Assembly: GCF_002156705.1 (NCBI RefSeq)
Contig: NZ_CP019893.1
Span: forward strand, 2,976,001 to 3,040,000
Origin: Natrarchaeobaculum aegyptiacum
GTDB lineage: Archaea > Halobacteriota > Halobacteria > Halobacteriales > Natrialbaceae
Reading direction: 5' to 3'
Length of the DNA stretch: 64,000 nucleotides
Positions within the stretch are counted from its first letter, which is position 1, and each line of letters starts with the position of its first letter. Made by a program: the position numbers and the translations under genes. Positions 7,953 through 55,832 of this stretch are shown here, piece by piece. The notes below the pieces were generated by a model. That model worked only from the letters and a program-made list of their open reading frames with translations. It was not told the DNA's origin and did no database searches.

Positions 7953-10900
7953 ATGACCTCGCCCCTTGTGGTATTCTTAGGTGCCGGCCGTCCCTTCTCC
8001 GGCACCGAACCATCTGCACTCCGCCACACAGCTGGCGACCGTCGAGTCCTCGACTGGCTCATCGATGCCTTCACCTCTGAACTCGAGTCCCCCGAACTCC
8101 ACTTCGTCGGTGGCTACCGCCTCGAGGAGATCGTGGAGGAATATCCAGAGATCCACTTCTCGAGAAACGAAGACTGGGAAGACACAGGGACTCTTGGGTC
8201 TCTCCTCGAGGCGCCCCTCCAGAGCGACCGCCCTACCTACGTCTGTTATGCCGACGTGGTCTTCCAGGCGGACGTCGTCGACCGACTCGAGCAAGCTACT
8301 GCCGACGCCGCCATTGCAGTCGACGAACGATGGCGAACGCGCTACAGTGCTCGATCGGACGAGAGTCGCGAACGCGCCGAAAAAGTTCGATACGAAGGAG
8401 ACCATATCGACCGCATTTCGAGCACGCTCGAGCCCGCCTCGGCCGATGCGGAGTTCACGGGGCTGGCACGGTTCTCCCCGGCTGCGATCGAGTTCCTGTT
8501 CGATATCGTCGACCGTGGTCTCCTCGGTCCGGAGAACGCCCTCCCGGATCTCGTGACGGCGCTCTCGCTGGCCGGAATCGACCCGCACCCAGTCGACGTC
8601 GACGGACACTGGGCTGAACTCGAGACCGCGGCGGATCTCGCCCGGTTCGTCCTCGATACGAAAGCCAATACTCTCAAACGACTCGAGTCGATGGTCACCG
8701 AGAGTACGATCGCACCGCAATATACGTTCACGGTCGAGGAGTTCGCGACCGACCCGGCGACAATCTTGGCAGACATCCGCGAGGCATTCGACGTCGAGGT
8801 GATCGTTCGCTCGAGCACGCTCGCGGAGGACGGCTGGGAGCATTCGAACGCCGGTCGGTTCGAGAGCATCCTCGACGTCCGGCTCGAGGACGAGGCGCTT
8901 ACGGACGCGATCGAGACGGTGATCGACTCCTACGACGACAACCCGGACAACCAGGTCCTGGTCCAGCCGATGGTGGAAGACGTCGCCGCGAGCGGTGTGG
9001 CGATGACGCGCACCGTCGAGGGAGGAAGTCCGTACTACGTGATCAACTACGACGCGGCGACGGGGAGCACGGTGACCGTCACGGACGGCACCGGCGACGA
9101 GATTCGGACCGTCGTCGTCCGCAAGGACGCGGTGTCGTCGTTCGCGAGCGACGTTCCAGCATCCGACGATGACTCGACCCCCTCGCTCACCTCCGACGGT
9201 GGAACGGTCGCCCGACTCGAGGGCGACTCCACGATCGCCGGTGATCCGGCGCTCCGGCTCCCGTCGGTGCTCCGGGCGATCGACGAACTCGAGTCGGTCG
9301 TCGGGCACGACGGGCTCGACGTCGAGTTCGCGGTCACTGACGACGGCGAGGTGTACGTCCTCCAGGTGCGACCGATGACCGTGGACGCGGGCGAGCGGTC
9401 GGTCGACGACGACGCCGTCGTGCGGGCCGTCGAGGCGGCCCGCGAAACATTCTGCGAGAGCCAGCGATCGTCGCCGTTCGTCCTCGGCGACCGGACGATC
9501 TTCGGGGTGATGCCGGACTGGAACCCGGCCGAGATAATCGGTCGCAGTCCGCGCCCACTCGCGGAATCGCTGTACCGATACCTGATCATGGACGAGGTAT
9601 GGGCGACCCAACGCGCGGAGTTCGGGTATCGAGACGTCCGCCCGCAGCCGCTGATGCAAACCTTCGCCGGCCAGCCGTTCGTCGACGTCCGCGCGGATTT
9701 CAACTCCTTCGTCCCCGCGAGCGTCTCCGACGAACTGGCCGCGAAACTCGTCGACTACTACCTGACCCGACTCGAGGACCGCCCGGAACTCCACGACAAG
9801 ATCGAGTTCGAAATCGCGCTGACGTGCCTCCCGTTCGATTTCGAGTACCGGGCCGAACCGCTCCGGGAGGCGGGCTTCGACGACGACGAACTCGCGGAGC
9901 TTCGCGAGGGACTCGGAGAGATCACCCGCGGGGCGTTCGACCGCGTCGAGAGCGGGCGTGATATCGCGGCCGTCGAGGCGCTCGAGGACCGGTACGAACG
10001 GCTTCGCGAAGCCGACCTCCCTGACCTCGAGGCCGCTCGGCGGTTGCTCGAGGACTGTCGGCGGCTCGGAACGTTACCGTTCGCCCACCTCGCGCGGTCG
10101 GCGTTCGTCGCCGTCTCGCTGTTACGATCGCTCGAGCGCAAGAACGTCCTGAGCGACGACGACGTCTCGAGATTCCACAACTCGCTGTCGACGGTCGCCC
10201 GCGAATTCGAACTGGACGGCTACCGCGTCGACACTGGCGACCTCGCGTTCGAGGAGTTCGTCGACACGTACGGCCACCTCCGGCCGGGAACGTACGACCT
10301 GACGTCGCCGCGGTACGCGACCGATCCCGACGACTACCTTCGGCCGACCGTCGAAGCAGCGACCGCGCCCGGAGACCATCCCGACCCGCGGGACGTCTGG
10401 GACGAAGATACGAAAGCCGAGATCGAACGCGAACTCGAGGCGATCGGGCTCCCAGCGGAGTGCGAGCGCTTCGTGACGTTCCTCGAAGAGGCCATCGAGG
10501 GACGGGAGTATTCGAAGTTCGTCTTCAGCAAGAACCTGAGCGAGGCGCTCGAGCGGATCGCAGCCTTCGGCGACGGGAACGGGTTCGACCGCGAGGAACT
10601 CTCCTACGTCCCCATAGAGGAGTATCTCGAGCTGACGACCAGTCCGCCGGCCGAGGATCTCGAGACGTGGCTCGAGCGGCGGATCGACGAGGGTCGCGGG
10701 CGGCACGCGATCGCCCGTGCCGTCGAGTTGCCGCCGTTGCTCTGTGACGACGCTGACTTCCTGTGTTTCGAGCGACCGGCGCGGGAGCCGAACTTCGTGA
10801 CGACCGAGATGGTTCGGGCGGAACTCGCTGAGCCCGACCTCGAACCGGACGTCGACCTCGACGGGAGGATCGTGATGATCCCGCAGGCCGATCCCGGCTA

Positions 10901-42319: not shown

Positions 42320-43582
42320 ATGAGTTACGACAAGATCGAGGTCCCTGAGGAGGGGGAAAAGATCACGCTCAAAGAGGGCTCGGAGACCGAACTCGAGGTT
42401 CCGGACAACCCAATTATCCCGATCATCTACGGTGACGGCGTCGGCAGTGACGTCGGTCCTGCAGCCCAGAAAGTGCTCGAGGCCGCCGCTGAGGCGACCG
42501 GCCGCGAGATCAACTGGATGCGCGTCTACGCTGGCGAGTCCGCTCGCGAGAAGTACGACGAGAACCTGCCCGACGAGACCGTCGAGGCGATCAAGGAACA
42601 CCGCGTCGCGATCAAGGGCCCGCTGACGACGCCCGTCGGTGCCGGCTTCCGCTCGCTGAACGTCGGTCTGCGCAAGCTGCTCGACCTCTATGCGAACGTT
42701 CGTCCGACCTACCACCTCGACGGCGTCCCGTCGCCCGTCAAAAATCCCGAGCAGATGGACATGGTCACCTTCCGTGAGAACACGGAAGACGTCTACGCCG
42801 GCATCGAGTGGGAAGCCGGCACCGACGAAGTCGAGCAGGTCAAGGAGTTCGTCGAAGACGAGATGGGCGCGACCGGCGTCATCCACGACGGCCCGGTCGG
42901 CATCGGCGTCAAGCCGATTACGGAGTTCGGGACGAAGCGACTCGTCCGCGAGGCCATCGACTACGCCCTCGAGAACGACCGCGACTCCGTCACCCTCGTC
43001 CACAAGGGGAACATCATGAAGTTCACCGAGGGCCAGTTCCGCGACTGGGGCTACGAGGTCGCCGAAGAGGAGTACGGCGACGAGGTCATCACCGAGGACA
43101 CCCTCTGGGAGGAACGCGACGGTGAAGCGCCGGAAGACGCCGTCGTCGTCAACGACCGCATCGCGGACAACATGCTCCAGCAGATTCTGACCCGCACCGA
43201 CGAGTACGACGTCGTCGCGACGATGAATCTGAACGGCGACTACATGTCCGACGCCTGTGGTGCCCAGATCGGTGGCCTCGGCATCGCCCCCGGTGGCAAC
43301 TTCGGTGAAGGCCGCATGCTCGCCGAACCCGTCCACGGCTCCGCACCCAAGTACGAGGGCCAGGACAAGGTCAACCCCACCGCCATGATCCTCTCGGGCC
43401 GCATGATGCTCGAGTACATGGGCTGGAACGACGCCGCAGACCTCGTGCGCGACGCCGTCGAGGAAACAATCTCCTCCGGCAAGGTCACCTACGACCTCGA
43501 ACGCCAGCTCGAGGACGCCGAGAAGCTCGCCACCAGCGAGTTCGCCGAGGAAGTCGTCGCGAATATCGAAAAACTGGCATAA
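42320..43582 (+). CDS. icd: Isocitrate dehydrogenase
   Basis: A 420-aa dehydrogenase that oxidises isocitrate to 2-oxoglutarate in the TCA cycle, probably NADP-linked as in other haloarchaea. The start region has IPIIYGDGVGSDVG. The substrate-binding serine region is GAGFRSLNVGLRKLLDLYAN. The family signature is NLNGDYMSDACGAQIGGLG, and the cofactor loop is EPVHGSAPKYEGQDKVNPTA. The final codons, encoding ANIEKLA, form the left arm of a 12-bp stem-loop that includes the stop codon and are repeated downstream in degenerate form. Confidence 0.95.
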   Translation: MSYDKIEVPEEGEKITLKEGSETELEVPDNPIIPIIYGDGVGSDVGPAAQKVLEAAAEATGREINWMRVYAGESAREKYDENLPDETVEAIKEHRVAIKGPLTTPVGAGFRSLNVGLRKLLDLYANVRPTYHLDGVPSPVKNPEQMDMVTFRENTEDVYAGIEWEAGTDEVEQVKEFVEDEMGATGVIHDGPVGIGVKPITEFGTKRLVREAIDYALENDRDSVTLVHKGNIMKFTEGQFRDWGYEVAEEEYGDEVITEDTLWEERDGEAPEDAVVVNDRIADNMLQQILTRTDEYDVVATMNLNGDYMSDACGAQIGGLGIAPGGNFGEGRMLAEPVHGSAPKYEGQDKVNPTAMILSGRMMLEYMGWNDAADLVRDAVEETISSGKVTYDLERQLEDAEKLATSEFAEEVVANIEKLA

Positions 43583-43807
43583 GCCAGTTTTTCGCACTCT
43601 CACGGCTTCGCCGTGAGAACATCGAGAAGCTCGCATAAGCTCGCTTCTCGGGCGTTCGGCTTTCACCGAACACATCGAAAAATTGACATAATCCAATTTT
43701 CTGGACAGTCAGGCCGCGAAGCGGACTGACGTTTTCGAGAAAACCCCATCAGGCTTCTCAAGCTCTCGCAGCGACGCCGCGAGAATATCGAGAAATTGTT
43801 GTAAACG
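43561..43807 (+). repeat. Degenerate ladder of icd 3'-end repeats with paired stem-loops
   Basis: Copies of the icd end recur with a step near 55 nt. Landmarks (ATCGA) fall at 43565, 43621, 43674 and 43787, with room for one more decayed unit near 43730. The first has a perfect 12-bp stem (43567-43578 with 43583-43594) around the loop ATAA, which overlaps the stop codon. The second keeps the ATAA loop and 10 of 12 pairs despite several changes. Read as protein, units 1, 2 and the last give ENIEKLA or ENIEKLL plus stop (N-IEKLA in icd itself). A second hairpin follows each unit: 43598-43618, 43654-43671, 43708-43730 and 43764-43784. Confidence 0.85.
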
Positions 43808-44206
43808 CCTCTTCCGCAAGCTGGAACCGTTTAGAAAGTCCGCATGTTATCTACAGGACATTAGTATTCTGACTGTTTGGCTCGTAGCGGGTGATGTCGA
43901 CTCGATCGAGTGGGACGTATTTCGGTGTGAACCAGTGAAGTGGGATACGATCTCGAGCCTCTCTTTCTGGGTCCGCTGTAACGGGTTGAAAGCAGCCACC
44001 GAGATCAGCGGACGAACAGTATGATTGCTGCCAGGTCTGTCGGTTCGCGGTCGGTATGGGGCTTCTTTCGATGGGAGTGGAACTATCATGTTCGAGCAGA
44101 TCTAGTTCGGATTCTGATCGGCGAGGGGAAAGACTGAGCTGTTGATAACTATTATACTACACACCGAATAGAAAGTTTTTACATACTTATTATACCAATA
44201 AATAGT
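43808..44206. other. Gene-free stretch at the left edge of the accessory island
   Basis: About 399 nt in which base composition shifts toward AT. Short ORFs on both strands lack recognisable features. The right end carries a promoter-like TTTTTACATACTTATTATA before the gene at 44207. Confidence 0.5.
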
Positions 44207-45784
44207 ATGAGGAACGAGTGTTTGTCTCCGCTCTTGATTGTCGTACTCGTCATTGGCGGGACTTTCGCTGTGAGCGGGGTGGCTGCCGGTGGATATCACC
44301 CTTCGTTGACGACCGATCAAAGCGAAGGTGTTGCAACGATCGCCGGTGAAGACGAAACGTACCGTACGGTTCAAGCAGCGATAAACGACGCAACGGCTGG
44401 AGATACGGTCGAAGTGCGTAGCGGGACGTATCGGGAACCCATCATCGTAAACGAATCGATCGTTCTCTCGGCCCCTGACGGGGCGACTGTCGACGGAACC
44501 ACTTCCCAGCAGAACGACCGAGGAATTACGATCAGTGGCGACAGCGAGCCGGTAGTCGATGGTTTCAGCGTGCAGGGATACGACGTCGGTGTGGCTGCGC
44601 AGGATACGGCGGGAGACTGGGAGATCCGAGAGATGGTGATCGAAGAAAACGAAATTGCTGGTCTATCTGCATCGAACTCGACCGGATCGTGGACCATTAC
44701 AAACTCCACTATTCGAGAGAATTACCACGAGGGGGTTTCCGCCGCCGGTTCCAGCGGCGACTGGACGATCCAGTCTTCGGTTCTCGAGCGGAATCACGAC
44801 GATGGAATCAACGGAGATTATTCGTCGGGCGAGTGGACGATCCGGGAGACGGTCATTCGATCGAACGGGGACGAAGGAATCGACGTGGAAAACAACACGG
44901 GGGACTGGCTGATCACTAACACTCTCGTCGAAGGGAACGATGACGACGGAATTGACGCAGACGGTCTGGAAGCGACAGGTAACTGGACCATCGAGGATTC
45001 CACTTTCCGTGAAAACGGAGACGAAGGAATCGACACCGACAACGCGCAAGGCGATTGGAAGATACGAAATACCACGATCAGTGAGAACGTTCAGGGGATA
45101 AATGCAGTCAACACGAGTGGAGACTGGAAAATCCACGATTCGACGATCGAGAAGAGTTTACGTAATGGTTTGAACACTCGTGGGTCATCAGGTGATTGGA
45201 CTGTCGACGACACGATCGTACGAAACAATACGATCGTCGGCGTCGCCGCGAGAAACGCGTCTGGGGAGTGGTCGATTCGCAATACCGATATCGAGAACAG
45301 TACTGTCGGTGTGTTTGCCGTCGCTTCCACCGGGGATTGGAGGATAACACACACGTCGATCAAAAACATTCAACTGTCCGAGTTCGGCTTTTCGACCGTC
45401 AATGAGGGGATCGGAATTGATGCACGCGAGACGAGGGGGTCGTGGGAAGTTTCGGAAGGACGTCTCGAAACGATCGACGAGTATTCGGTTGACGCGACTG
45501 GAGCAGCTGTTCGCGGCGATGCGACCGGGAACTGGTGGGGAAATCCCGAACCGGACGCTGTCTGTACCGGCAACGTTACGTGTGAAAATTCGTTGATGGA
45601 GGGCCCTAGTGATATCGGTGCCAGTGCTTCCGCTGAGACCGACACGTCCGATGACGAAGAGAGAGCGGAACGGGACGAACCAGATGCGGAAGAAATACCG
45701 GGATTTGGGGTGTCGGTCGTACTGATCGCTGTCACGACCTTTAGTTGTGGCCTATTCTACCGTAACCGATTGGACGGCTCCTGA
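44207..45784 (+). CDS. Secreted parallel beta-helix surface protein with PGF-CTERM anchor
   Basis: A 525-aa surface protein. It has an N-terminal signal segment (LIVVLVIGGTFAVSGVAAGG), then a NosD/CASH-like beginning (YRTVQAAINDATAGDTVEV). Eleven to twelve repeats of about 24 residues follow, each marked by G(D/S/E/N)WxI, for example SSGDWTIQSSVLERNHDDG; these form one beta-helix rung each. After an acidic linker the C-terminus is IPGFGVSVVLIAVTTFSCGL plus basic residues, a PGF-CTERM signal processed by archaeosortase and lipid-anchored. The ligand is unknown. It sits at the left of the lanthipeptide island and is AT-richer than core genes. Confidence 0.85.
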   Translation: MRNECLSPLLIVVLVIGGTFAVSGVAAGGYHPSLTTDQSEGVATIAGEDETYRTVQAAINDATAGDTVEVRSGTYREPIIVNESIVLSAPDGATVDGTTSQQNDRGITISGDSEPVVDGFSVQGYDVGVAAQDTAGDWEIREMVIEENEIAGLSASNSTGSWTITNSTIRENYHEGVSAAGSSGDWTIQSSVLERNHDDGINGDYSSGEWTIRETVIRSNGDEGIDVENNTGDWLITNTLVEGNDDDGIDADGLEATGNWTIEDSTFRENGDEGIDTDNAQGDWKIRNTTISENVQGINAVNTSGDWKIHDSTIEKSLRNGLNTRGSSGDWTVDDTIVRNNTIVGVAARNASGEWSIRNTDIENSTVGVFAVASTGDWRITHTSIKNIQLSEFGFSTVNEGIGIDARETRGSWEVSEGRLETIDEYSVDATGAAVRGDATGNWWGNPEPDAVCTGNVTCENSLMEGPSDIGASASAETDTSDDEERAERDEPDAEEIPGFGVSVVLIAVTTFSCGLFYRNRLDGS

Positions 45785-45920
45785 TGTAATAGAGTGATTC
45801 AGGTGCTGGACGACGGCTGAAACCGGACCGGTGTTGAGGTTTCCCTCTTCACGGATTCTGTAGCTTCCGATTTACTGGAACCGGCACAAATAAAGTGTGC
45901 TGCGGAATACCAGTGCGGTA

Positions 45921-46058
45921 TTAGTGCAGGTCCGGACTGGTATCGTAACAGAACGCGATCGTCATGTGTCCCGCACGATCGTTGCCGCCCTCAACGGTGG
46001 GTTCTTCTCGTTCGTACATCGATTCGATGCGCTTCTTAGCTTGGCTGTTTCGCGCCAT
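45921..46058 (-). CDS. Candidate lanthipeptide precursor (LanA-like) with GG leader
   Basis: A 45-aa ORF. Residues 1-25 form a charged, helix-prone leader (MARNSQAKKRIESMYEREEP and on) ending in VEGG, the double-glycine site typical of class II lanthipeptides. The 20-residue core ends HMTIAFCYDTSPDLH and contains one Cys (37) plus Thr33, Thr40 and Ser41. Thr33 to Cys37 could form one methyllanthionine ring. A TATA-like TTATAA lies 22-27 nt upstream for leaderless transcription. It points away from lanM, 1.9 kb distant, with the metalloprotease gene between. It is too short for a routine ORF scan. An unrelated small protein remains possible. Confidence 0.5.
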   Translation of the reverse strand: MARNSQAKKRIESMYEREEPTVEGGNDRAGHMTIAFCYDTSPDLH

Positions 46059-46223
46059 TGCGATTTTTAGTTCTATGTGTTATAACTTAATGTTTTTTAT
46101 CTAAATTCATATGTTTCTATGTTACTGGAGATGGTATATAAAATAGTATATATAAATAGTATTATCCACATTCGGCATGCTATGGAAATCACTTAGTTGG
46201 TGGAATTTATAGTGTGATAATAG
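46059..46223. promoter_or_regulatory. AT-rich divergent promoter region between the precursor candidate and the metalloprotease gene
   Basis: Very AT-rich for this genome. It holds TTATAA at 46080-46085 serving the minus-strand ORF, and TATATATAAAT near 46147-46157 plus AATTTATAG near 46204 as candidates for the plus-strand gene. Confidence 0.5.
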
Positions 46224-47846
46224 ATGGAGAAATCAAAATCGCATTATCGATCAATTACTGTATTACTCACTGGAATAATCGTACTAACTGGAATCGCTGG
46301 AATCGCAGGCAACGCTGCCGCGTCGCCCGTGGATCGAGTATCCGCGGGCCAACTGGATGCGAATGTAGCGGTCGATGCGGAAAGCGACGAGACGACCGTT
46401 CAACTCAATCAATCGGAGATAGATGAACTAACCGAACGAACAATTGAGCGAGTCGAAAAGATACGTGAACTAGAATTTAAAGAAGACGTGGATGTGGAGG
46501 TGATTTCGGTCGAAGAGTTCGCCGATCGGAACAGGGATGCATTCGCCGACACTTCGGAGTCGGAGGCCACACGAGAGAACGTGAAGTGGGAGGCGATGAT
46601 GATGGTAAACGAGAGCACTGATGCAACCGAACTCCAGCAGGCGAACGCCGTCGAAGGACCGCGTGGCTATTACGACCCTGAGCACGAACGGGTCGTTCTC
46701 GTCGTAGACGACGAAGCGTCACCGGAACTCAATGAACTAGTTCTCGCACACGAACTTGTTCACGCGCTTCAGGACCAACACTTCGATATCAGCGATCGCT
46801 TTCACTTCTCCCCGTTCGAGCGTCCACCGATGACACAGGACGAGTTGAACGCGAAGAACGGTATCGTCGAGGGCGATGCCGTCCGTGTCGAGCAACTGTA
46901 TCTCGATCGTTGTAGCGAAGAGTGGGAGTGTCAAATTCCTGATAGAATGCAAGCGGATGATGACGAACTTCCAGATAGACAGTGGGGAATGTATCTGGTG
47001 AGCCTCCAGCCATATAGTGACGGCCCTAACTTCGTCAATCACGTAGAATCCGACCACGGCTGGGAAGGTGTGAACGAAATCTATGAGAATCCACCTGCGA
47101 GTTCGCACCAAGTGATCGAACCCGAAGCATATCCGGACGACGAACCAGCGACGATCGAGTTCACAGATCGAAGCTCGAGCGACTGGGAGTTGGTCGAAGG
47201 AGAGGGCGATCAACCCGACTATGAGTCCGTTGGCCAGGCAGGGGCCGCGTCGATGCTCTTTTATCCGTACTACGACTCGGATCGTGACGACGAGGCGCCA
47301 GTGATTCCGGTGCTCAGTTTTCTCAACCTTACGGACTCCGGAGAACTGAGCGAGTATAGACCCGTCAAGTATGCGAACAACCCATACGTTTCCGGATGGA
47401 ACGGGGACGCGCTGTATCCGTACGTGATGGAAACGGAAGCCGGTGCGAAAGAAACAGCGTACGTCTGGAAGAGCAACTGGGAGACAGAGCGTGATGCCGA
47501 GCGGTGGCTCGACGGGTACACCGAATTACTCAACTATCACGGGGGGGAGGAGAGCGACGAGAATCCGAATGTGTTCGTCATTCCGGACGACAACGATTTT
47601 GCGGGCGCCTACTACATCGATCGATCAGGCGACACCGTCATAATTGCCAATTCACCTACTGAAGAAGAGTTACCCGCAGTATATGACGCTAGTGCGGTCA
47701 ACGGTGAACGACCGTCCGAGGATGAGCCGGTAGACGGCGGCGGAAGCGACGACTCATCGGACGGGCTGTCAGGATTCGGTATTGCAGTGACAGTTGTCGC
47801 TCTTATCACTGTAGCGTCGTCGTGGCGCAGGCTAGCGGAACGCTAG
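46224..47846 (+). CDS. Secreted HELVH zinc metalloprotease-like surface protein (Hvo_1808-like)
   Basis: A 540-aa exported protein. Residues about 10-33 are a hydrophobic signal segment ending in an Ala-rich cleavage site. The zinc motif is LAHELVHALQDQHFD with His176, Glu177 and His180, and the probable third ligand is Glu in NGIVEGDAVRVEQ about 35 residues later, a gluzincin-like layout. The C-terminus has an acidic Gly/Ser linker, then LSGFGIAVTVVALITVASS plus Arg, similar to a sorting/anchor signal. It resembles the haloarchaeal family named after Hvo_1808 (from memory). Sitting in the lanthipeptide island, it could remove leader peptides outside the cell, since the ABC exporter lacks a protease domain; this is inference. 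Confidence 0.72.
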   Translation: MEKSKSHYRSITVLLTGIIVLTGIAGIAGNAAASPVDRVSAGQLDANVAVDAESDETTVQLNQSEIDELTERTIERVEKIRELEFKEDVDVEVISVEEFADRNRDAFADTSESEATRENVKWEAMMMVNESTDATELQQANAVEGPRGYYDPEHERVVLVVDDEASPELNELVLAHELVHALQDQHFDISDRFHFSPFERPPMTQDELNAKNGIVEGDAVRVEQLYLDRCSEEWECQIPDRMQADDDELPDRQWGMYLVSLQPYSDGPNFVNHVESDHGWEGVNEIYENPPASSHQVIEPEAYPDDEPATIEFTDRSSSDWELVEGEGDQPDYESVGQAGAASMLFYPYYDSDRDDEAPVIPVLSFLNLTDSGELSEYRPVKYANNPYVSGWNGDALYPYVMETEAGAKETAYVWKSNWETERDAERWLDGYTELLNYHGGEESDENPNVFVIPDDNDFAGAYYIDRSGDTVIIANSPTEEELPAVYDASAVNGERPSEDEPVDGGGSDDSSDGLSGFGIAVTVVALITVASSWRRLAER

Positions 47847-47884
47847 TTACCAAACTGAGACTCCGCCCAGAATCCTACCAATTT

Positions 47885-47894
47885 TTTATATTTA
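47885..47894 (+). promoter_or_regulatory. TATA box of lanM
   Basis: TTTATATTTA lies 21-30 nt before the ATG at 47915; a second AT-rich element (ATATATTATA) follows it closely. Confidence 0.5.
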
Positions 47895-47914
47895 TGGGCA
47901 ATATATTATAGACG

Positions 47915-50900
47915 ATGGGATCTAAGGCAATTCTGTCTGAACGAGAAAGACGAACGATCGCTGGACGCGCTCGAACATTACAAGAGCGGCTCGAGACGAC
48001 CGGTGACGAAACCGAATCCGTCGTTGACGTCGACGACGTAATGGACAGGTGGCGGGAGCACGTTGCGAACGCTGATCCCGATGTATTTCGGACTCGACTG
48101 GATCGTGAGGGGCTCGACGAGCAAACGTGCCGGAACCGCATCGACGACGGTGGCTGGCCGTCGAACGAGCCGCTCCCGGCGTGGATCGATCGACTAGAGG
48201 CCCTGCTCCAGTACGTACACGAGAGCTCCCCTTCCGACTACGCGATTAGTGTAGACGAGGAACTACCGTTCGTGGACATTCTCCTCCCCGTTCTCGCCTT
48301 CGCGCGAGAGGGCATCGAACCCGTTTCCACCGAGTGCGTGACAGCGGATGCAGTTGAGGACCTGATTGAGATCCTCGCAAACCGCCTTTCGAAACTGTGG
48401 TCCCACACGGTGTTCATCGAGTTCAAAACACATATCGCGGAACGAGATCCGGACCTCGTCTTCGACGACGGAGACGTCAAACCCGATTCGATCGAACACT
48501 ACGAGGAGTTTTGCGATCGAATGCTTCGCGACGAACTCGCGGCGTTTTTCGTCGAGTACGCGTTTTTGGGTCGACTTGTGGTCAGCGTAATAGACCAGTG
48601 GAAAAACTGGGTCGGTGAGTTGTGCGATCACGTGACCCGGGACCGAGAGCGACTGAACAAACGTTTTGGATCCGAAACAGCCCTGGGACCCGTGGTGGAA
48701 ATCGATGCGATGGGGGACCCACACCACGGCGGTCGACGGGTGCTCAGCGTCACGTTTCAGTCCGGTACGACCGTCGCGTACAAGCCGCGCAACTCGGACA
48801 TCGTCGCCGGATTCTACGATCTCCTGGACTGGATAAACAGGACCGGTGATCTCCTCCACCTCGAGACCCTCGAGGTCCTTCCCAGGGAGACCTACGCCTG
48901 GATTGAGTGGGTGGAACCAAGGACTTGCGGGTCCGAGACCGAGGTACGCAACTATTATCGAAGGGCAGGGATGCTCATCGCCGTTTTCTACGCGCTCGAC
49001 GCGACGGACATGCATCTCGAGAACATCGTCGCCGTCGGGGACCAGCCGGTTGCAATCGACGTAGAAACGCTCGCCCAGCCGATGGTCAAGCCACAGAATC
49101 GGTCGGTGAACGAGGCGATCGAAGTAGCGAAAGACACCGTGGTCCGAACGGGAGCGGTTCCGGAACACGTCCAGTCACCGGACGTCGACGACGTCGCGGG
49201 CTTTTCGGCGAAACAGCTCGAGGTAAACATCACCGTGGACCGCTTCACCGACGTCAATACGGACCGGATGGACATCGAGTCGGTTCCACACCCGAATCGG
49301 GAGGGTGAAAGTCTCCCACAGTATTCCGGAGAGGTAATTGAACCCGAGGAGTACTCCGGTGCGATCGTTAGGGGATTTGTGGACGTATACGAGCTGTTTA
49401 TGGCGAACGAAGGCGCCTTGTTGAGCGATGACGGTCCGATAGAGCAGCTGATCGAAAGAGAGCCGAAAGTACGGGCCCTGTACCGAGACACGGCGGTCTA
49501 CACGAAAATCAACCGATCAGTGACGTCTCACTCGTACCACCGAACCGGACTCCGGTTCGGAACGCAGGTCGAGTCGCTCGCGAAGTTGCTGATTTCTGGC
49601 GAACTCGATCGGGACGTCTGGCCAATATTCGAGTGCGAGCGGAGTATCTTACGACGATTCAATACGCCTCGTTTCACCGCGAAGATCGACAGTACGGATA
49701 TATTTAATCGAAACGGGACGGTCGTCGAAGACTTCTTCGAATCGAAGGTCAGCGATCAGATTCGAGACCGAATTCGTGGATTCAGCAAGGCAGACCTCGA
49801 TGAGCAGGTAACGTATCTTCGCTGGGGGTACGGGGAATACGAGCAGATCCACGGAGGTGGCTCAACGGCGACGCTCTCCGCCACTGAGCTGGCGACCGGT
49901 GAACCGATCGACGGGTTGGTACTCGAGGAATCTCGACGACTGTACGACCGACTCATCTCGCACTCGAGACGCGACGACGGACTGCCGACGTGGGTTCTCC
50001 GCGAGGTGATGCAAGAGAGTGGAATCTACATCCACCCCGTCGAAGACAATCTCTACAGCGGCCGGCTCGGTATCGGACTGTTCGCCGCGGGATTAGCCCG
50101 ACTCGACGACGACGAGTCGTACCGCGATTTTGCACTGGACGTCGTCTCTCCGGTGATGACCAGACTAGAGGACGACATCTCACCTCCGTTCCCAATCGGC
50201 GGGGGCGTCGGACTGGGATCGATGGTGTACGGATTCACAAAGCTCGGCGAACTGTTGGCAGACGATGCGTGTATCGCCGCCGCGAGCGAGGCGGCAAGGA
50301 GGATCGACTCGGAACGGATCGCCGCCGATAACCGATACGACGTACTTCACGGGAGCGCCGGTGCAATTCTCGGATTACTCGCCCTGTACGAGGTAACAGG
50401 TGAGGAGGACATCCTGGACCGAGCGGTACAGGCGGGGGACCACTTGCTGAATCACCGCCACGATCACCAGGGAGTTCTCACGTGGAGTACACCGTCTATC
50501 GGTCGTCCGTTGTGCGGGTTCGCTCACGGTGTCGCCGGAATAGCATATGCGCTGTTCCGCCTCGGCAGTACAACCGATGCCGCACGTTTTTCCGACGCCG
50601 CTCTTGAGGGGATCAGATTCGAGCGCCAACAGTACGATCACCAGGCCCAAAACTGGCCGGACTTGCGGCCCAATACCGAGACGGACTGGATGGACGCCTG
50701 GTGTCACGGGCGGACCGGTATCGGCCTCGCTCGCCTCGGGATGTACGAGATTGAGCAAATTCCCGAACTTCGTCGCGATGTCGACCGGGCGCTTCAGGGC
50801 ATCGAAACGAACGAGTTATACGCTGCCGATCACCTCTGCTGTGGCAATTTCGGTCGGATCGAGTTCCTTCGGCGGGCGGCTCGAACACTTGATGAGCCCA

Positions 50901-51091
50901 CTCACCTAGTGGATGCGAAACGACTTGCGGCTGCCAGCGTGGAACGGGCCACCTCGTCTGGACAGTTCTCGACACCGTGGCAAACCGAGCACTGGTACAA
51001 TCCGTCGTTTTTCACCGGTGAGACGGGTATCGGATACTCGTTGATGCAGTTCGCCGCCCCATCACTACCGTGTGCGGTTCTGTGGGAGTGA
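47915..51091 (+). CDS. lanM: Class II lanthipeptide synthetase LanM
   Basis: A 1058-aa bifunctional enzyme that dehydrates Ser/Thr in a precursor peptide by phosphorylation and elimination, then closes thioether rings. The N-terminal dehydratase (DUF4135, lipid-kinase-like) shows TVAYKPRNSD, DATDMHLENIVAVGDQ (Asp365-Asn370) and AIDVETL. The C-terminal LanC domain (about residues 680-1058) shows CGFAHGVAGIAYAL, WCHGRTGIGLAR with Cys930-His931, and LCCGNFGRIEF with Cys975-Cys976. The CCG form gives three cysteine zinc ligands, as in ProcM-type synthetases. It starts an operon with the esterase-like gene 10 nt downstream. Class II systems are known in haloarchaea, so the novelty lies in this cluster's make-up. 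Confidence 0.9.
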   Translation: MGSKAILSERERRTIAGRARTLQERLETTGDETESVVDVDDVMDRWREHVANADPDVFRTRLDREGLDEQTCRNRIDDGGWPSNEPLPAWIDRLEALLQYVHESSPSDYAISVDEELPFVDILLPVLAFAREGIEPVSTECVTADAVEDLIEILANRLSKLWSHTVFIEFKTHIAERDPDLVFDDGDVKPDSIEHYEEFCDRMLRDELAAFFVEYAFLGRLVVSVIDQWKNWVGELCDHVTRDRERLNKRFGSETALGPVVEIDAMGDPHHGGRRVLSVTFQSGTTVAYKPRNSDIVAGFYDLLDWINRTGDLLHLETLEVLPRETYAWIEWVEPRTCGSETEVRNYYRRAGMLIAVFYALDATDMHLENIVAVGDQPVAIDVETLAQPMVKPQNRSVNEAIEVAKDTVVRTGAVPEHVQSPDVDDVAGFSAKQLEVNITVDRFTDVNTDRMDIESVPHPNREGESLPQYSGEVIEPEEYSGAIVRGFVDVYELFMANEGALLSDDGPIEQLIEREPKVRALYRDTAVYTKINRSVTSHSYHRTGLRFGTQVESLAKLLISGELDRDVWPIFECERSILRRFNTPRFTAKIDSTDIFNRNGTVVEDFFESKVSDQIRDRIRGFSKADLDEQVTYLRWGYGEYEQIHGGGSTATLSATELATGEPIDGLVLEESRRLYDRLISHSRRDDGLPTWVLREVMQESGIYIHPVEDNLYSGRLGIGLFAAGLARLDDDESYRDFALDVVSPVMTRLEDDISPPFPIGGGVGLGSMVYGFTKLGELLADDACIAAASEAARRIDSERIAADNRYDVLHGSAGAILGLLALYEVTGEEDILDRAVQAGDHLLNHRHDHQGVLTWSTPSIGRPLCGFAHGVAGIAYALFRLGSTTDAARFSDAALEGIRFERQQYDHQAQNWPDLRPNTETDWMDAWCHGRTGIGLARLGMYEIEQIPELRRDVDRALQGIETNELYAADHLCCGNFGRIEFLRRAARTLDEPTHLVDAKRLAAASVERATSSGQFSTPWQTEHWYNPSFFTGETGIGYSLMQFAAPSLPCAVLWE

Positions 51092-51101
51092 CAACACAAC
51101 C

Positions 51102-52370
51102 ATGCAAGAGCGATTCACGAGACATCTCGAACGATACACGACTCCAATACAGGAAACACGTCCCGGTGCGAGCGTCGACGATCTCGCTCCGCTCGGCGAC
51201 CGGTTCGATCGAAAGCGGATCATCGGACTCGGAGAAGCGACACACGGTACGAAAGAGTTCTTCCAGCTGAAACACCGCCTCATACGTTTTGCCGTCACGG
51301 AACTGGATTTTTTATTGATCGGGCTCGAATCGAACTTCGCAGAAACGGTCGCGATTAACGAATATGTGATCTCGGGATCGGGTGAGCCGTACACCGCACT
51401 CGCCGGTCTCTCTTACTGGCCGTGGAAGACCGAAGAGATGCTGGCACTCGTCGAGTGGGTTCGGATGTACAACGAAGGACGACCGGATTCACAGAAGGTT
51501 CAGTTCTACGGGTTCGATATGCAATCGGTGCGAGGATCGGCGCGTCGAATAGAAACAATCCTCAAACGGGTTGATGCCGACTGTCGTGCGGAACTCGAAT
51601 CGGAGATAACGACGCTCACGACGACGCTCGATCCGACGGACAGCGACAATACCTTCGGCTGGCTGACTGCGGCGACGACGGTTGTGACGGAACTGAGAGA
51701 CCGATTTCGCCGACGGGAAGACGCCTACCGGGCGCAGTTAACTCCTCGAGAGTGGCAGTTGGCTACCCACCATCTGCGCGTTATCGAACAGAGTCTCGAG
51801 TTCCACGAGTCCGTGAGTGCGTCGAACGATGCCGACCCAAACGGCGTTCGTGACAGATGTATGGCGGAGAACGTGTCGCGAATTATGGGGTTAGCAAACG
51901 AGGATCGAATCATACTTTGGGCCCACAACGGCCACCTCAAACGAGGCGAGTTCGCGACGTCCCACCGAGCGAACGCACCGAAAACCATGGGACACCACCT
52001 CGAGCAGGAGTACGGTGATCGATATCATCCAGTTGGCTTTGAATTCGGAACCGGAGCGTTCCAGGCATACCCGGACCCAGACACGAGCCAGGAACTCAGC
52101 TTGCGATCGTTTTCCGTCGAGTCAGTCCCCGACGAAACCGTTCCGGCGGTCCTCGCAGGTGTCGATGGTTCGTGCTGGTATCTCGATATCACGTCGGCGG
52201 TAGGCGATCAGGTCGTCGACGACTGGATCGATACCGAACAGATTATGCACAATATCGGCTCAGTACACCTGGGAGAATTCGACGCCTACGTGCCTGTCAC
52301 GTTAGCGGAAGCGTTTGACGGGTTAATTTACGTAACAGAAACGCATCGCGCAGTTCCGATCGACGCCTAA
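51102..52370 (+). CDS. Erythromycin-esterase-like protein
   Basis: A 422-aa protein of the erythromycin esterase (EreA/EreB) superfamily. Family blocks are visible: IIGLGEATHGTKEFFQLKHR near the N-terminus, a GLESNFAE segment with the catalytic-site acidic residues, and ILWAHNGHLKRGEF near residue 270 with the conserved His. Members hydrolyse macrolide lactones, but most are uncharacterised. Here the gene starts 10 nt after lanM, so a role in peptide tailoring, product inactivation or self-protection is more likely than macrolide resistance (inference). The ATG at 51102 is preferred; a GTG at 51072 would overlap lanM. Confidence 0.82.
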   Translation: MQERFTRHLERYTTPIQETRPGASVDDLAPLGDRFDRKRIIGLGEATHGTKEFFQLKHRLIRFAVTELDFLLIGLESNFAETVAINEYVISGSGEPYTALAGLSYWPWKTEEMLALVEWVRMYNEGRPDSQKVQFYGFDMQSVRGSARRIETILKRVDADCRAELESEITTLTTTLDPTDSDNTFGWLTAATTVVTELRDRFRRREDAYRAQLTPREWQLATHHLRVIEQSLEFHESVSASNDADPNGVRDRCMAENVSRIMGLANEDRIILWAHNGHLKRGEFATSHRANAPKTMGHHLEQEYGDRYHPVGFEFGTGAFQAYPDPDTSQELSLRSFSVESVPDETVPAVLAGVDGSCWYLDITSAVGDQVVDDWIDTEQIMHNIGSVHLGEFDAYVPVTLAEAFDGLIYVTETHRAVPIDA

Positions 52371-52443
52371 TGCACTACGCTCGTTTGAACGTCGACTGAA
52401 ACTATCCTTCCATACGAATGTATTTTTGGGAATAACGAGCGAA

Positions 52444-52453
52444 GATAATATAT
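52444..52453 (+). promoter_or_regulatory. TATA-like element before the ABC exporter gene
   Basis: GATAATATAT lies 28-37 nt before the ATG at 52481, suggesting the exporter can be transcribed separately from lanM. Confidence 0.45.
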
Positions 52454-52480
52454 GTGAGACGCTAATCTCATACGGATACA

Positions 52481-54388
52481 ATGGGAGAAGTGGACGCTTC
52501 TGGGTCCGACGGGACTAACTCTACTACCCTGTTCGAAAGCGAACAGGATGACATTGGCTGGCCGATCCCCCGGTTATTTCTGGAGTTTGGCCCGAAATAC
52601 AAGATCCTGGTTTTGGGAGCCCTTCTCACGTCGGTACTGGGACCGTTTGTCAATCTCATCCCTCCGTATATTTTACAGACGGCAATTGATGCCGTGTTAC
52701 TGGGTGATGAACCGTTCTCTCTGCCGGGTGTCTCCCCCGATCGACTCCCCGAGGACCAACTTCAGCAACTGTATCTGGTTTCCGCGATCATTATCGCCGC
52801 CTCTGTGGCCGGTGCGGTGCTTTCGTGGGCCGGCGGTTGGACCTGGGGTCTCTTCTCACAGGAAGTTCAGCACTCGATTCGGACCGAAACGTACGAAAAG
52901 GTCCAAACGCTCGGAATGGGGTTTTTCGATTCGGAGGAGACCGGCCAGATAATGAGCGTTCTTAATAACGACGTGAATCGGTTAAACCAGTTTCTCAAGG
53001 ATTTTCTCCGTGATTCGCTTCATATCACCACGACGTTGCTCGGAATCACCATACTGTTATTTATGCTCCACTGGGAGTTCGCCCTGATCACGTTCGTTTT
53101 CTTTCCGATAATGACGCTTCTCACCAGGTATTTCGTGAAGCGGATTCGGCCAAAGCACGAAGCGGTTCGAAAACAGGTTGGTTCACTGAACGCCTGTATC
53201 GAAAACAACATAAGCGGAATTCGGGTAATCAAATCGTATACATCAGAGTCGAACGAGGCAGATCGTATCAGAGACTCATCAGAGAGGTTGTATGACAAAC
53301 GGTGGAACGTCATAACGACTCGAATCAAGTTTTTTCCTGCTGTTTCAGCCGTTAACTGGATCGGATTCGGTGCGATCATCATTATCGGTGGAATCTGGAT
53401 CATCAATGGTCCACCGCTGTTTTTCTCCGAACCGCTTACTGTCGGGACTCTCGTTGCGTTTCTCGTCTACAACGAACGGCTGATGGAACCGATACTGGTC
53501 GGCGGAAAACTCGTCGACAGGTACTTCAAATCGCGTGCATCGGTCGTACGGATCTTTGCGCTGCAAGATTACGAGACGGAAATCACGGAAACCGACGATT
53601 CAGTCGATATTGAACCAATGACGGGAGATGTACAGTTCGTAGACGTTACCTTCAGCTACGACGAGAAACCGGTGCTGAAAAACGTCGATTTGGAGATCAA
53701 CCCGGGTGAGTTCGTTGGAATCGTTGGATCGACGGGATCCGGAAAGACGACGTTGACGAAGCTGTTGCTTCGCTTCTACGAACCCGACTCGGGCATGATC
53801 CTGATCGACGGTTACGAACTCGATCGAGTTTCCCTCGAAAGCTTGAGACGATCGATCGGTGTCGTCCACCAGGATCCGTATCTCTTCTCCGGAACGGTCC
53901 GTGACAACATTTCGTACGGAAGTCCCGAGGTGACAGAAGCCGAAATAGTCCAGGCGGCAAAACGGGCAAACGCACACGATTTTATTTCGGACCTCCCCGA
54001 TGGGTACGATACGGCCGTCGGTCAACGAGGCGTCAAACTCTCCGGTGGCCAACGTCAGCGAATCTCGATCGCTCGAGCGATTATCGGTGATCCAGACATC
54101 CTCGTTCTGGACGAGGCAACATCGCACGTGGACAATCGAACGGAATCACTGATCCAAAACTCCCTCTCGGACATCGTCGCCGATCGGACGACGTTTGCGA
54201 TCGCGCACCGACTCTCGACCGTTCGCCACGCCGACACGATACTCGTCCTAGACGATGGCCGGATCGTCGAACGAGGAACACACGACGAGTTGCTTCGCCA
54301 AGATGAGTTTTATTCTGATCTGTGGGAGATGCACATTGGAGAAGGAAATCAAACGTCCATCGAACGGGCCGGCTACACGAAGCCGTAA
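52481..54388 (+). CDS. lanT: ABC exporter (fused permease and ATPase), probable lanthipeptide transporter
   Basis: A 635-aa type IV ABC half-exporter. Six transmembrane helices span about residues 35-330. The ATPase has Walker A GSTGSGKTTLTKLLLRF, signature VKLSGGQRQRISIARA, Walker B ILVLDEATSHVD and the H-loop FAIAHRLSTV. There is no N-terminal C39 peptidase domain, so it cannot cleave the GG leader itself, unlike classical LanT. Its place at the end of the lanM group argues for export of the modified peptide or for immunity; the gene symbol reflects that inferred role. A general lipid or drug exporter of the MsbA type remains possible. Confidence 0.82.
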   Translation: MGEVDASGSDGTNSTTLFESEQDDIGWPIPRLFLEFGPKYKILVLGALLTSVLGPFVNLIPPYILQTAIDAVLLGDEPFSLPGVSPDRLPEDQLQQLYLVSAIIIAASVAGAVLSWAGGWTWGLFSQEVQHSIRTETYEKVQTLGMGFFDSEETGQIMSVLNNDVNRLNQFLKDFLRDSLHITTTLLGITILLFMLHWEFALITFVFFPIMTLLTRYFVKRIRPKHEAVRKQVGSLNACIENNISGIRVIKSYTSESNEADRIRDSSERLYDKRWNVITTRIKFFPAVSAVNWIGFGAIIIIGGIWIINGPPLFFSEPLTVGTLVAFLVYNERLMEPILVGGKLVDRYFKSRASVVRIFALQDYETEITETDDSVDIEPMTGDVQFVDVTFSYDEKPVLKNVDLEINPGEFVGIVGSTGSGKTTLTKLLLRFYEPDSGMILIDGYELDRVSLESLRRSIGVVHQDPYLFSGTVRDNISYGSPEVTEAEIVQAAKRANAHDFISDLPDGYDTAVGQRGVKLSGGQRQRISIARAIIGDPDILVLDEATSHVDNRTESLIQNSLSDIVADRTTFAIAHRLSTVRHADTILVLDDGRIVERGTHDELLRQDEFYSDLWEMHIGEGNQTSIERAGYTKP

Positions 54389-54767
54389 CGCCACTCACGC
54401 TCGAGTCACGATCGTCGGTCAGCGGACGGGTCCACGGCGGGAACGTAGCGCTGGTGATTGCAACCAAGGACGGTTCGACCGCGTCGGCCACGTGGTACGT
54501 CGTAGAGCGATCGCTTGACCTTGATCCAGCGTCCCCGCGGAAACGCGAAAACGTAGACTGAGACTCCCACCGCGACGCGACCGGAGTTCGAGTCGGCCCG
54601 CGACCCCGAAGACAGTGAGCGCGACCCTCGAGGTGGTGCGGCCGATTGCGTCCGGTCATTTCTATCGCGTACTCCATCGATTTCGAGTATCATAGGTACT
54701 GAAATCCCGTTCTCGAAACAATCAATTACGGTTATTCGCCAGTTCGGTGTGTATTTGGCTGGAATAC
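54389..54767. other. Gene-free stretch at the right edge of the accessory island
   Basis: About 379 nt in which composition returns to high GC. Overlapping short ORFs on both strands show no family features. I found no clear copy of the icd 3'-end repeat here that would mark a right attachment site. Confidence 0.45.
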
Positions 54768-55832
54768 ATGACAGACGATCGCGACCTTCCGGCGACACCA
54801 CGGCGAACCTTCCTCGCCGGGGCCGCCGGTGTGGCAGCTCTCGGAACGGCTGCGACGGCCGGCGCGAGCGACCACCACGAACGCAAACGCGAGACGCCGA
54901 AGACGACCGACGACGGGGACCTGACCGGCCACGACCTCACGATGGACGACGGCTACCGGCTCCGCGTGTGGGAGCGGACGGCCAGCGACGATCCCGAGGA
55001 GGCGGTCATCTTCGTCCACGGAATGACCTACGGCGCGGTACCGATGTTCGACCCGCCCGTGGCCCCGGACTTCGGTTGGCTGCCGTTCGCCGCCGGGCGC
55101 GGACAGGCTACCTTCGCCCCCGACATGCGCGGCTACGGCGATTCGGAACGTCCGCCCGAGTACGACGAACCGCCGGAGGCGAACACTTCCGGGCTGTCGT
55201 TCGAACGCGAAGCCCGTGACATCCTCGCGTTGACCCGCTGGCTCCGCGCGGAACGGAACTTCGACCGCATCCACTACGTTGGTCTCTCGGGAGGAACGTG
55301 GCGCGGCCGGGCCGTCTACACGCTCGGCGACCCCGACTACGCGACGGTTACGCTCGCCGGCGGCTCCTTCGAGACGCTCCCGGTTGGTGCCGAGCCTGAT
55401 GGCCCGTTTTACCTCCCACACACGCGCGAGGAGTTCGACGCGGCGTTGACCGGCGAGATTCCTGAGGGTGAGGCCGTCGACGACTGGCTCGGCGGCGACG
55501 AGTTCACCGCTCGGGAAGTCCTGGATGGCGTCTGGCAGCCGATCGTGACCTCGAACCAGCGCCTCGCGGAGCCGGATACGATCGCCAATCCGCTCGTACT
55601 CCAGCAGGCGACCTACCATCCGAAGCACATCGACGATCCGACGCTCGTGATCCGTGCCTCGGGCGACGAGACGATCAGTCGTGAGGGGGCGTTGAACCTC
55701 TACGATGGCGTCGGCGCGATCGAGGATCGAAAACGGTACGTCGAACTCGCGGGGGGAACCCACTTCGTGTTCTTAGAGCGCCGACGCCAGGCGTTCTTCG
55801 AGGAGGTGTACGGGTTCCAACAACGGTACTGA
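54768..55832 (+). CDS. Tat-exported alpha/beta hydrolase
   Basis: A 354-aa hydrolase. The N-terminus is a twin-arginine signal (PATPRRTFLAGAAGVAALGT), so the folded protein is exported, the usual route in haloarchaea. The mature part has FVHGMTYGA (oxyanion loop), DMRGYGDSERP, the nucleophile elbow YVGLSGGTWRG with Ser, an acidic residue in IRASGDETI and the terminal His in AGGTHFVF. The substrate is unknown; esterase, epoxide hydrolase or dehalogenase are all possible in this fold. The ATG at 54768 starts the signal peptide. Confidence 0.8.
   Translation: MTDDRDLPATPRRTFLAGAAGVAALGTAATAGASDHHERKRETPKTTDDGDLTGHDLTMDDGYRLRVWERTASDDPEEAVIFVHGMTYGAVPMFDPPVAPDFGWLPFAAGRGQATFAPDMRGYGDSERPPEYDEPPEANTSGLSFEREARDILALTRWLRAERNFDRIHYVGLSGGTWRGRAVYTLGDPDYATVTLAGGSFETLPVGAEPDGPFYLPHTREEFDAALTGEIPEGEAVDDWLGGDEFTAREVLDGVWQPIVTSNQRLAEPDTIANPLVLQQATYHPKHIDDPTLVIRASGDETISREGALNLYDGVGAIEDRKRYVELAGGTHFVFLERRRQAFFEEVYGFQQRY

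Follow-up and report, generated by a model that had tools for sequence, protein, structure and literature searches.

A candidate one-ring class II lanthipeptide precursor in an 11-kb lanM block of the haloarchaeon Natrarchaeobaculum aegyptiacum

The analysed window is a 64,000-nucleotide stretch of Natrarchaeobaculum aegyptiacum (NZ_CP019893.1, positions 2,976,001 to 3,040,000). It carries a lanA-like precursor gene of 45 codons at 45921-46058 on the minus strand, recognised by its ATG start, its homology and its codon-position identities. The translation (MARNSQAKKRIESMYEREEPTVEGGNDRAGHMTIAFCYDTSPDLH, 45 aa) contains Gly24-Gly25, a single cysteine (Cys37), Thr33, Thr40 and Ser41, exactly as a preliminary description had stated. 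Its N-terminal part includes the leader motif K8-x-x-I-E-x-x-Y15 (46014-46037, minus), and a C-terminal core with Cys and Ser/Thr follows. A TATA-like word, TTATAA, lies 22-27 nt upstream of the ATG (46080-46085, minus). The gene had been credited with its own TATA box; the word is indeed there, but it is weak evidence of a promoter because the 165-bp spacer between the divergent precursor and Hvo_1808-family genes (46059-46223) is AT-rich, with 27% GC against 62% in the window.

Five neighbouring genes, all on the plus strand, accompany the precursor: a surface β-helix (NosD-like) protein (44207-45784), an Hvo_1808-family surface protein with an HELVH motif (46224-47846), LanM (47915-51091), an erythromycin-esterase superfamily protein (51072-52370) and a one-piece ABC exporter (52481-54388). 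The precursor is on the opposite strand to lanM, as had been noted, and stands outside the lanM operon with one gene in between.

LanM is a class II lanthipeptide synthetase with dehydratase and cyclase domains (Pfam DUF4135 and LANC_like; NCBIfam TIGR03897). The alignment to LicM2 covers residues 87-1054, and that to CylM falls into two stretches; the enzyme is both the sole LanC-like match and the sole DUF4135 match reported in its own 3.93-Mb genome. Where CylM has CHG, this LanM has CCG, presumably a three-cysteine zinc site as in ProcM. CCG was rejected as a peculiarity of this enzyme, since 34 of 46 full-length haloarchaeal LanMs carry it as judged by a simple pattern.

The Hvo_1808 family is ubiquitous and no mark of the cluster, because all 21 genomes searched (own included) carry a member; this removes the protein as a candidate dedicated leader protease, although some role in the cluster is possible. 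Its namesake in Haloferax volcanii is described as cell-associated (PMC2945643). The erythromycin-esterase gene overlaps the end of lanM and probably belongs to its operon; it was dropped as a conserved partner, no homologue being reported in the 12 other lanM loci compared. The exporter has ABC_membrane and ABC_tran domains only, and Pfam reports no C39 peptidase domain in it.

The precursor and its five neighbours lie in a block of about 11.1 kb (about 43701 to 54803) between stretches that match a congener without lanM (G240). In that congener, whose icd protein is 97% identical, icd and an alpha/beta-hydrolase gene are about 0.8 kb apart; the empty-site comparison is with this one congener, the icd match reaching the contig end in the other two. 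At the left edge of the block (43565-43695) the 3' end of icd is repeated in three degenerate tandem copies (ATCGAAAAACTGGCATAA and variants), every copy preceding its own near-inverted repeat, and the congener has two such units in the same place. A pattern search allowing up to three mismatches recovered two of the three copies and none elsewhere in the window. The copies could be the scar of repeated integration at the icd end. A second precursor within the block was considered and rejected: among 19 ORFs of 20 aa or more in its intergenic gaps, the precursor ORF alone has the leader motif.

Homologues of the precursor were found beside other haloarchaeal lanM genes, where the preliminary description had proposed to look for them. 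Across 392 genomes of the order, 38 of which contain LanM (PF13575), two non-self matches had E < 0.005: G124 (2.5e-6) and Natronobiforma cellulositropha (G169, 0.0037), both no more than 2 kb from a lanM gene. Matches at E ≤ 1 occurred in 146 of the 392 genomes, all except these two and the own genome being taken as chance; reading frames were extracted for four weak-match genomes (G390, G154, G249 and G047). In the own-family search, 5 of 125 genomes matched; the own genome and G169 look real, and the remainder are two matches inside frames of more than 900 aa (G394, G395) and one 74-aa frame (G368). The G124-family search gave 6 matches in 28 genomes (three real, three inside frames of more than 650 aa). 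In the G390-family search (5 of 146), three matches fall inside frames of more than 800 aa, one (G227) adjoins lanM, and the fifth (G452) is a short frame that runs antisense to an ORF resembling acyl-CoA synthetase; LanM was not found in the 3.1-kb G452 locus. A scan of named genomes returned 8 loci, 5 of them haloarchaeal, and every LanM matched in the plasmid search was below 60% identity.

A leave-one-out profile of six family members, with the window ORF excluded, ranked the precursor ORF first over its whole 3.93-Mb genome (E 1.2e-7; runner-up 0.097). A five-seed profile was run against 8,609 small ORFs from 56 other lanM regions and 24 kb of the window; at E ≤ 0.05 it matched the window and nine loci (L062, L063, L064, L065, L067, L068, L080, L081 and L090), the seed sequences among them matching by construction. 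The archalan gamma precursor (L117) scored E 0.54, below this set.

Glu12, Tyr15 and Cys37 are invariant in all seven aligned members of the leader family, the L065 row of the alignment starting one codon after a Met (SATSM). The published haloarchaeal LanA leader motif is Kx(Y/F)(D/E)xx(F/Y) (Castro et al., as quoted in PMC10105419). At this place the precursor reads KRIESMY, with Ile at the first aromatic position, and archalan gamma likewise has Ile (KAEIETEY). Relatives lacking GG or Cys, or found elsewhere than by lanM, had been named as contrary evidence: the aligned relatives retain the Cys and adjoin lanM but lack the GG. A single Cys after the leader motif also occurs in L068 (10516-10635 and 10845-11141), L063 (8429-8557) and L080 (7909-8043). 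Because several leader-family precursors have a single Cys, this LanM branch may commonly make one-ring products.

The enzymes pair in the same way as the precursors. Of the LanMs at the compared loci, the most similar is that of G124 (50% identity; next 43%), which stands by the closest precursor, and in a tree of 46 full-length LanMs it and the window enzyme are sisters with support 100. Eight LanMs with leader-bearing neighbours form one branch (support 99; none of 500 shuffles as low), in a hand-picked set that includes L117 (E 0.54) and omits L090 (E 0.022). With cut-offs of E ≤ 0.05, 0.6 and 1e-5, the leader label requires 3, 2 and 2 changes, respectively, over the 46 enzymes. The tree was built by FastTree alone, which gave a long-branch warning, and excludes L064 and L080, whose LanM frames are split or short.

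The nearest relative is the G124 precursor (contig C4, L081:10694-10828), which reads MSSDSLKDQIEAAYEQDERPVEAGTEQAGQMTVAFCGGHYTNLE. Since its genome carries the published archalan alpha, beta and gamma cores, G124 is probably the archalan producer Halorussus salinus YJ-37-H or a near relative. The two clusters share the leader, the T-x-x-x-C core, a nearby LanM and a nearby β-helix protein. They differ in the tail after the Cys and in transport, G124 having ABC ATPase and ABC-2 permease genes where the window cluster has a one-piece exporter; its precursor and lanM have no gene between them. Over 41 aligned codons, identity to this relative is 66, 66 and 37% at codon positions 1, 2 and 3, the pattern expected from selection on the precursor reading frame.

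Hundreds of predicted haloarchaeal precursors and two dozen products have been described (PMC10105419, PMC12144867), and haloarchaeal class II lanthipeptides are an established kind. As far as the consulted passages of these two papers go, the 45921-46058 ORF is a new one, but both it and its G124 relative may already figure in published lists of predicted precursors. Archalan gamma, a product verified by experiment, has the same K-x-x-I-E-x-x-Y-x-R type of leader, and its LanM falls in the same branch at about 40% identity; the archalan gamma core (CSCYTRICCDIDS) differs in that it has four Cys and forms two thioether rings plus a disulfide (PMC12144867), against one Cys here. Sallan A2 resembles the predicted product in that a haloarchaeal LanM makes its one thioether ring, but its core is CTRYSF with a proven ring Cys1-Ser5 (PMC12144867). 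The Natronobiforma cellulositropha locus (L062) shares the leader family and the position next to lanM (LanM 39% identical), but encodes three tandem precursors (9957-10549) with near-identical DSCWSSSC cores, two Cys each and no GG. These adjoin fatty-acid or polyketide-like genes, including an acyl-carrier-protein-like ORF. In L065 (12318-13604), a luciferase-like monooxygenase (PF00296) and an MFS transporter are found by lanM, and ORFs with N-termini like those of these L065 neighbours also lie by lanM in L062 and L067.

Within the core, the start is better conserved than the end. The segment AGHMTIAFC (45948-45974, minus), which begins at Ala29-Gly30 and contains the probable ring residues Thr33 and Cys37, corresponds to AGQMTVAFC in G124; T-x-x-x-C is unchanged in both precursors and the tails differ. 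This core is shared with one relative only, and the ring reading draws on these two sequences. Because the T-x-x-x-C spacing is conserved, the single ring that had been proposed between Thr33 and Cys37 is the best reading, and a methyllanthionine at this position is probable. Such a forward i,i+4 ring has a precedent in Ser2-Cys6 of ciblan A1 (PMC12144867).

The leading alternative keeps the peptide as a LanM substrate and reverses the ring: Cys37 would add to dehydrated Ser41 (or Thr40), with Thr33 remaining Thr or becoming dehydrobutyrine. Cys37-Ser41 has the i,i+4 spacing of the Cys1-Ser5 ring in sallan A2 (PMC12144867), and Cys-first rings are also reported in archalan alpha (Cys2-Thr5 and Cys6-Ser10). 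Yet the nearest relative keeps T-x-x-x-C but not the residues after the Cys (GGHYTNLE, where the first Thr comes at i+5), which makes the reversed ring the less likely one.

The placement of the cleavage site at VEGG finds no support. GG is present in the window ORF, AG occupies the aligned positions in G124, and the other aligned members lack GG; the motif is thus not conserved, and no C39 domain was found in the cluster exporter. Ala29-Gly30, conserved in the nearest relative, is judged from the sequences to be an equally good candidate, and cleavage after it would leave a 15-residue core, HMTIAFCYDTSPDLH. For this core, the calculated [M+2H]2+ values with one, two and three waters lost are 866.8765, 857.8712 and 848.8660; for a core released after Gly24-Gly25 they are 1123.4913, 1114.4860 and 1105.4807.

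The reading preferred here, that the ORF encodes a substrate of the neighbouring LanM whose leader is removed and whose one-ring product is exported, is given a probability of roughly 85% on the sequence evidence. The leader would be the charged N-terminus, up to roughly residue 25 or 30, and would be recognised through K-x-x-I-E-x-x-Y. LanM would dehydrate Thr33, perhaps also Thr40 and Ser41, and add the sole Cys37 to dehydrated Thr33, giving one methyllanthionine ring, T-I-A-F-C. A protease other than the cluster exporter may then cut the leader near Ala29-Gly30 or Gly24-Gly25, and the peptide may be exported, perhaps via the ABC protein at 52481-54388. The product could act against or between haloarchaea, if the analogy with the archalans holds.

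The precursor might instead be a relic or silent gene, a former LanM substrate whose expression or processing has been lost. The divergent gene between lanA and lanM and the weak promoter evidence would fit this explanation. It is nevertheless improbable: the reading frame is intact, leader and core are kept, third codon positions are the most diverged, and LanM, the exporter and the other neighbours all have intact frames. That the ORF arose by chance in an intergenic spacer, its GG and Cys being accidental, was tested with the leave-one-out profile and a count of look-alike ORFs and is rejected as very improbable: GG followed by Cys and Ser/Thr occurs in 17 of 326 window ORFs of 30-80 aa, so that these features are not rare by themselves, and plus-strand ORFs of 57 and 46 aa overlap the gene, but the ORF is raised above chance because its protein is homologous to lanM-linked ORFs across families, its third positions have diverged in this frame, and stops interrupt two of the three antisense frames of the relative. 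The central proposal of the preliminary description, a lanthipeptide precursor, is supported by relatives that adjoin lanM and a nearest relative that retains both leader and T-x-x-x-C core.

Besides the precursor and LanM, the β-helix gene is common to the two nearest clusters, which belong to different families, and its orientation relative to the precursor differs between them. In G124 it directly follows the precursor, and its product is 37% identical over 493 aa. Among seven lanM genomes, homologues at E ≤ 1e-5 were found in the own genome and G124 only. In the order as a whole, 28 of 392 genomes have one at E ≤ 1e-25, the copy by the G124 precursor being the best non-self match, and the G251 homologue lies about 10 kb from a lanM. 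A partnership of lanthipeptide and β-helix protein is not mentioned in the consulted passages of PMC10105419 or PMC12144867, and a literature text search joining lanthipeptide, haloarchaea and β-helix returned no paper. A tentative proposal, held with well below even confidence and rather doubtful as it stands, is that the window and G124 clusters form a separate type, defined by a single conserved T-[IV]-A-F-C ring and a dedicated β-helix partner acting on the product. If so, the β-helix protein would be, for example, an immunity factor, a receptor or a docking site.

Archaeal lanthipeptides are few and recent. What gives the present case its value is that the precursor agrees with its LanM branch, with a sister cluster from a different family and with the empty site of a congener. 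The β-helix partner is the least ordinary part of the cluster, and the shared surface β-helix gene offers a concrete candidate for self-protection or reception.
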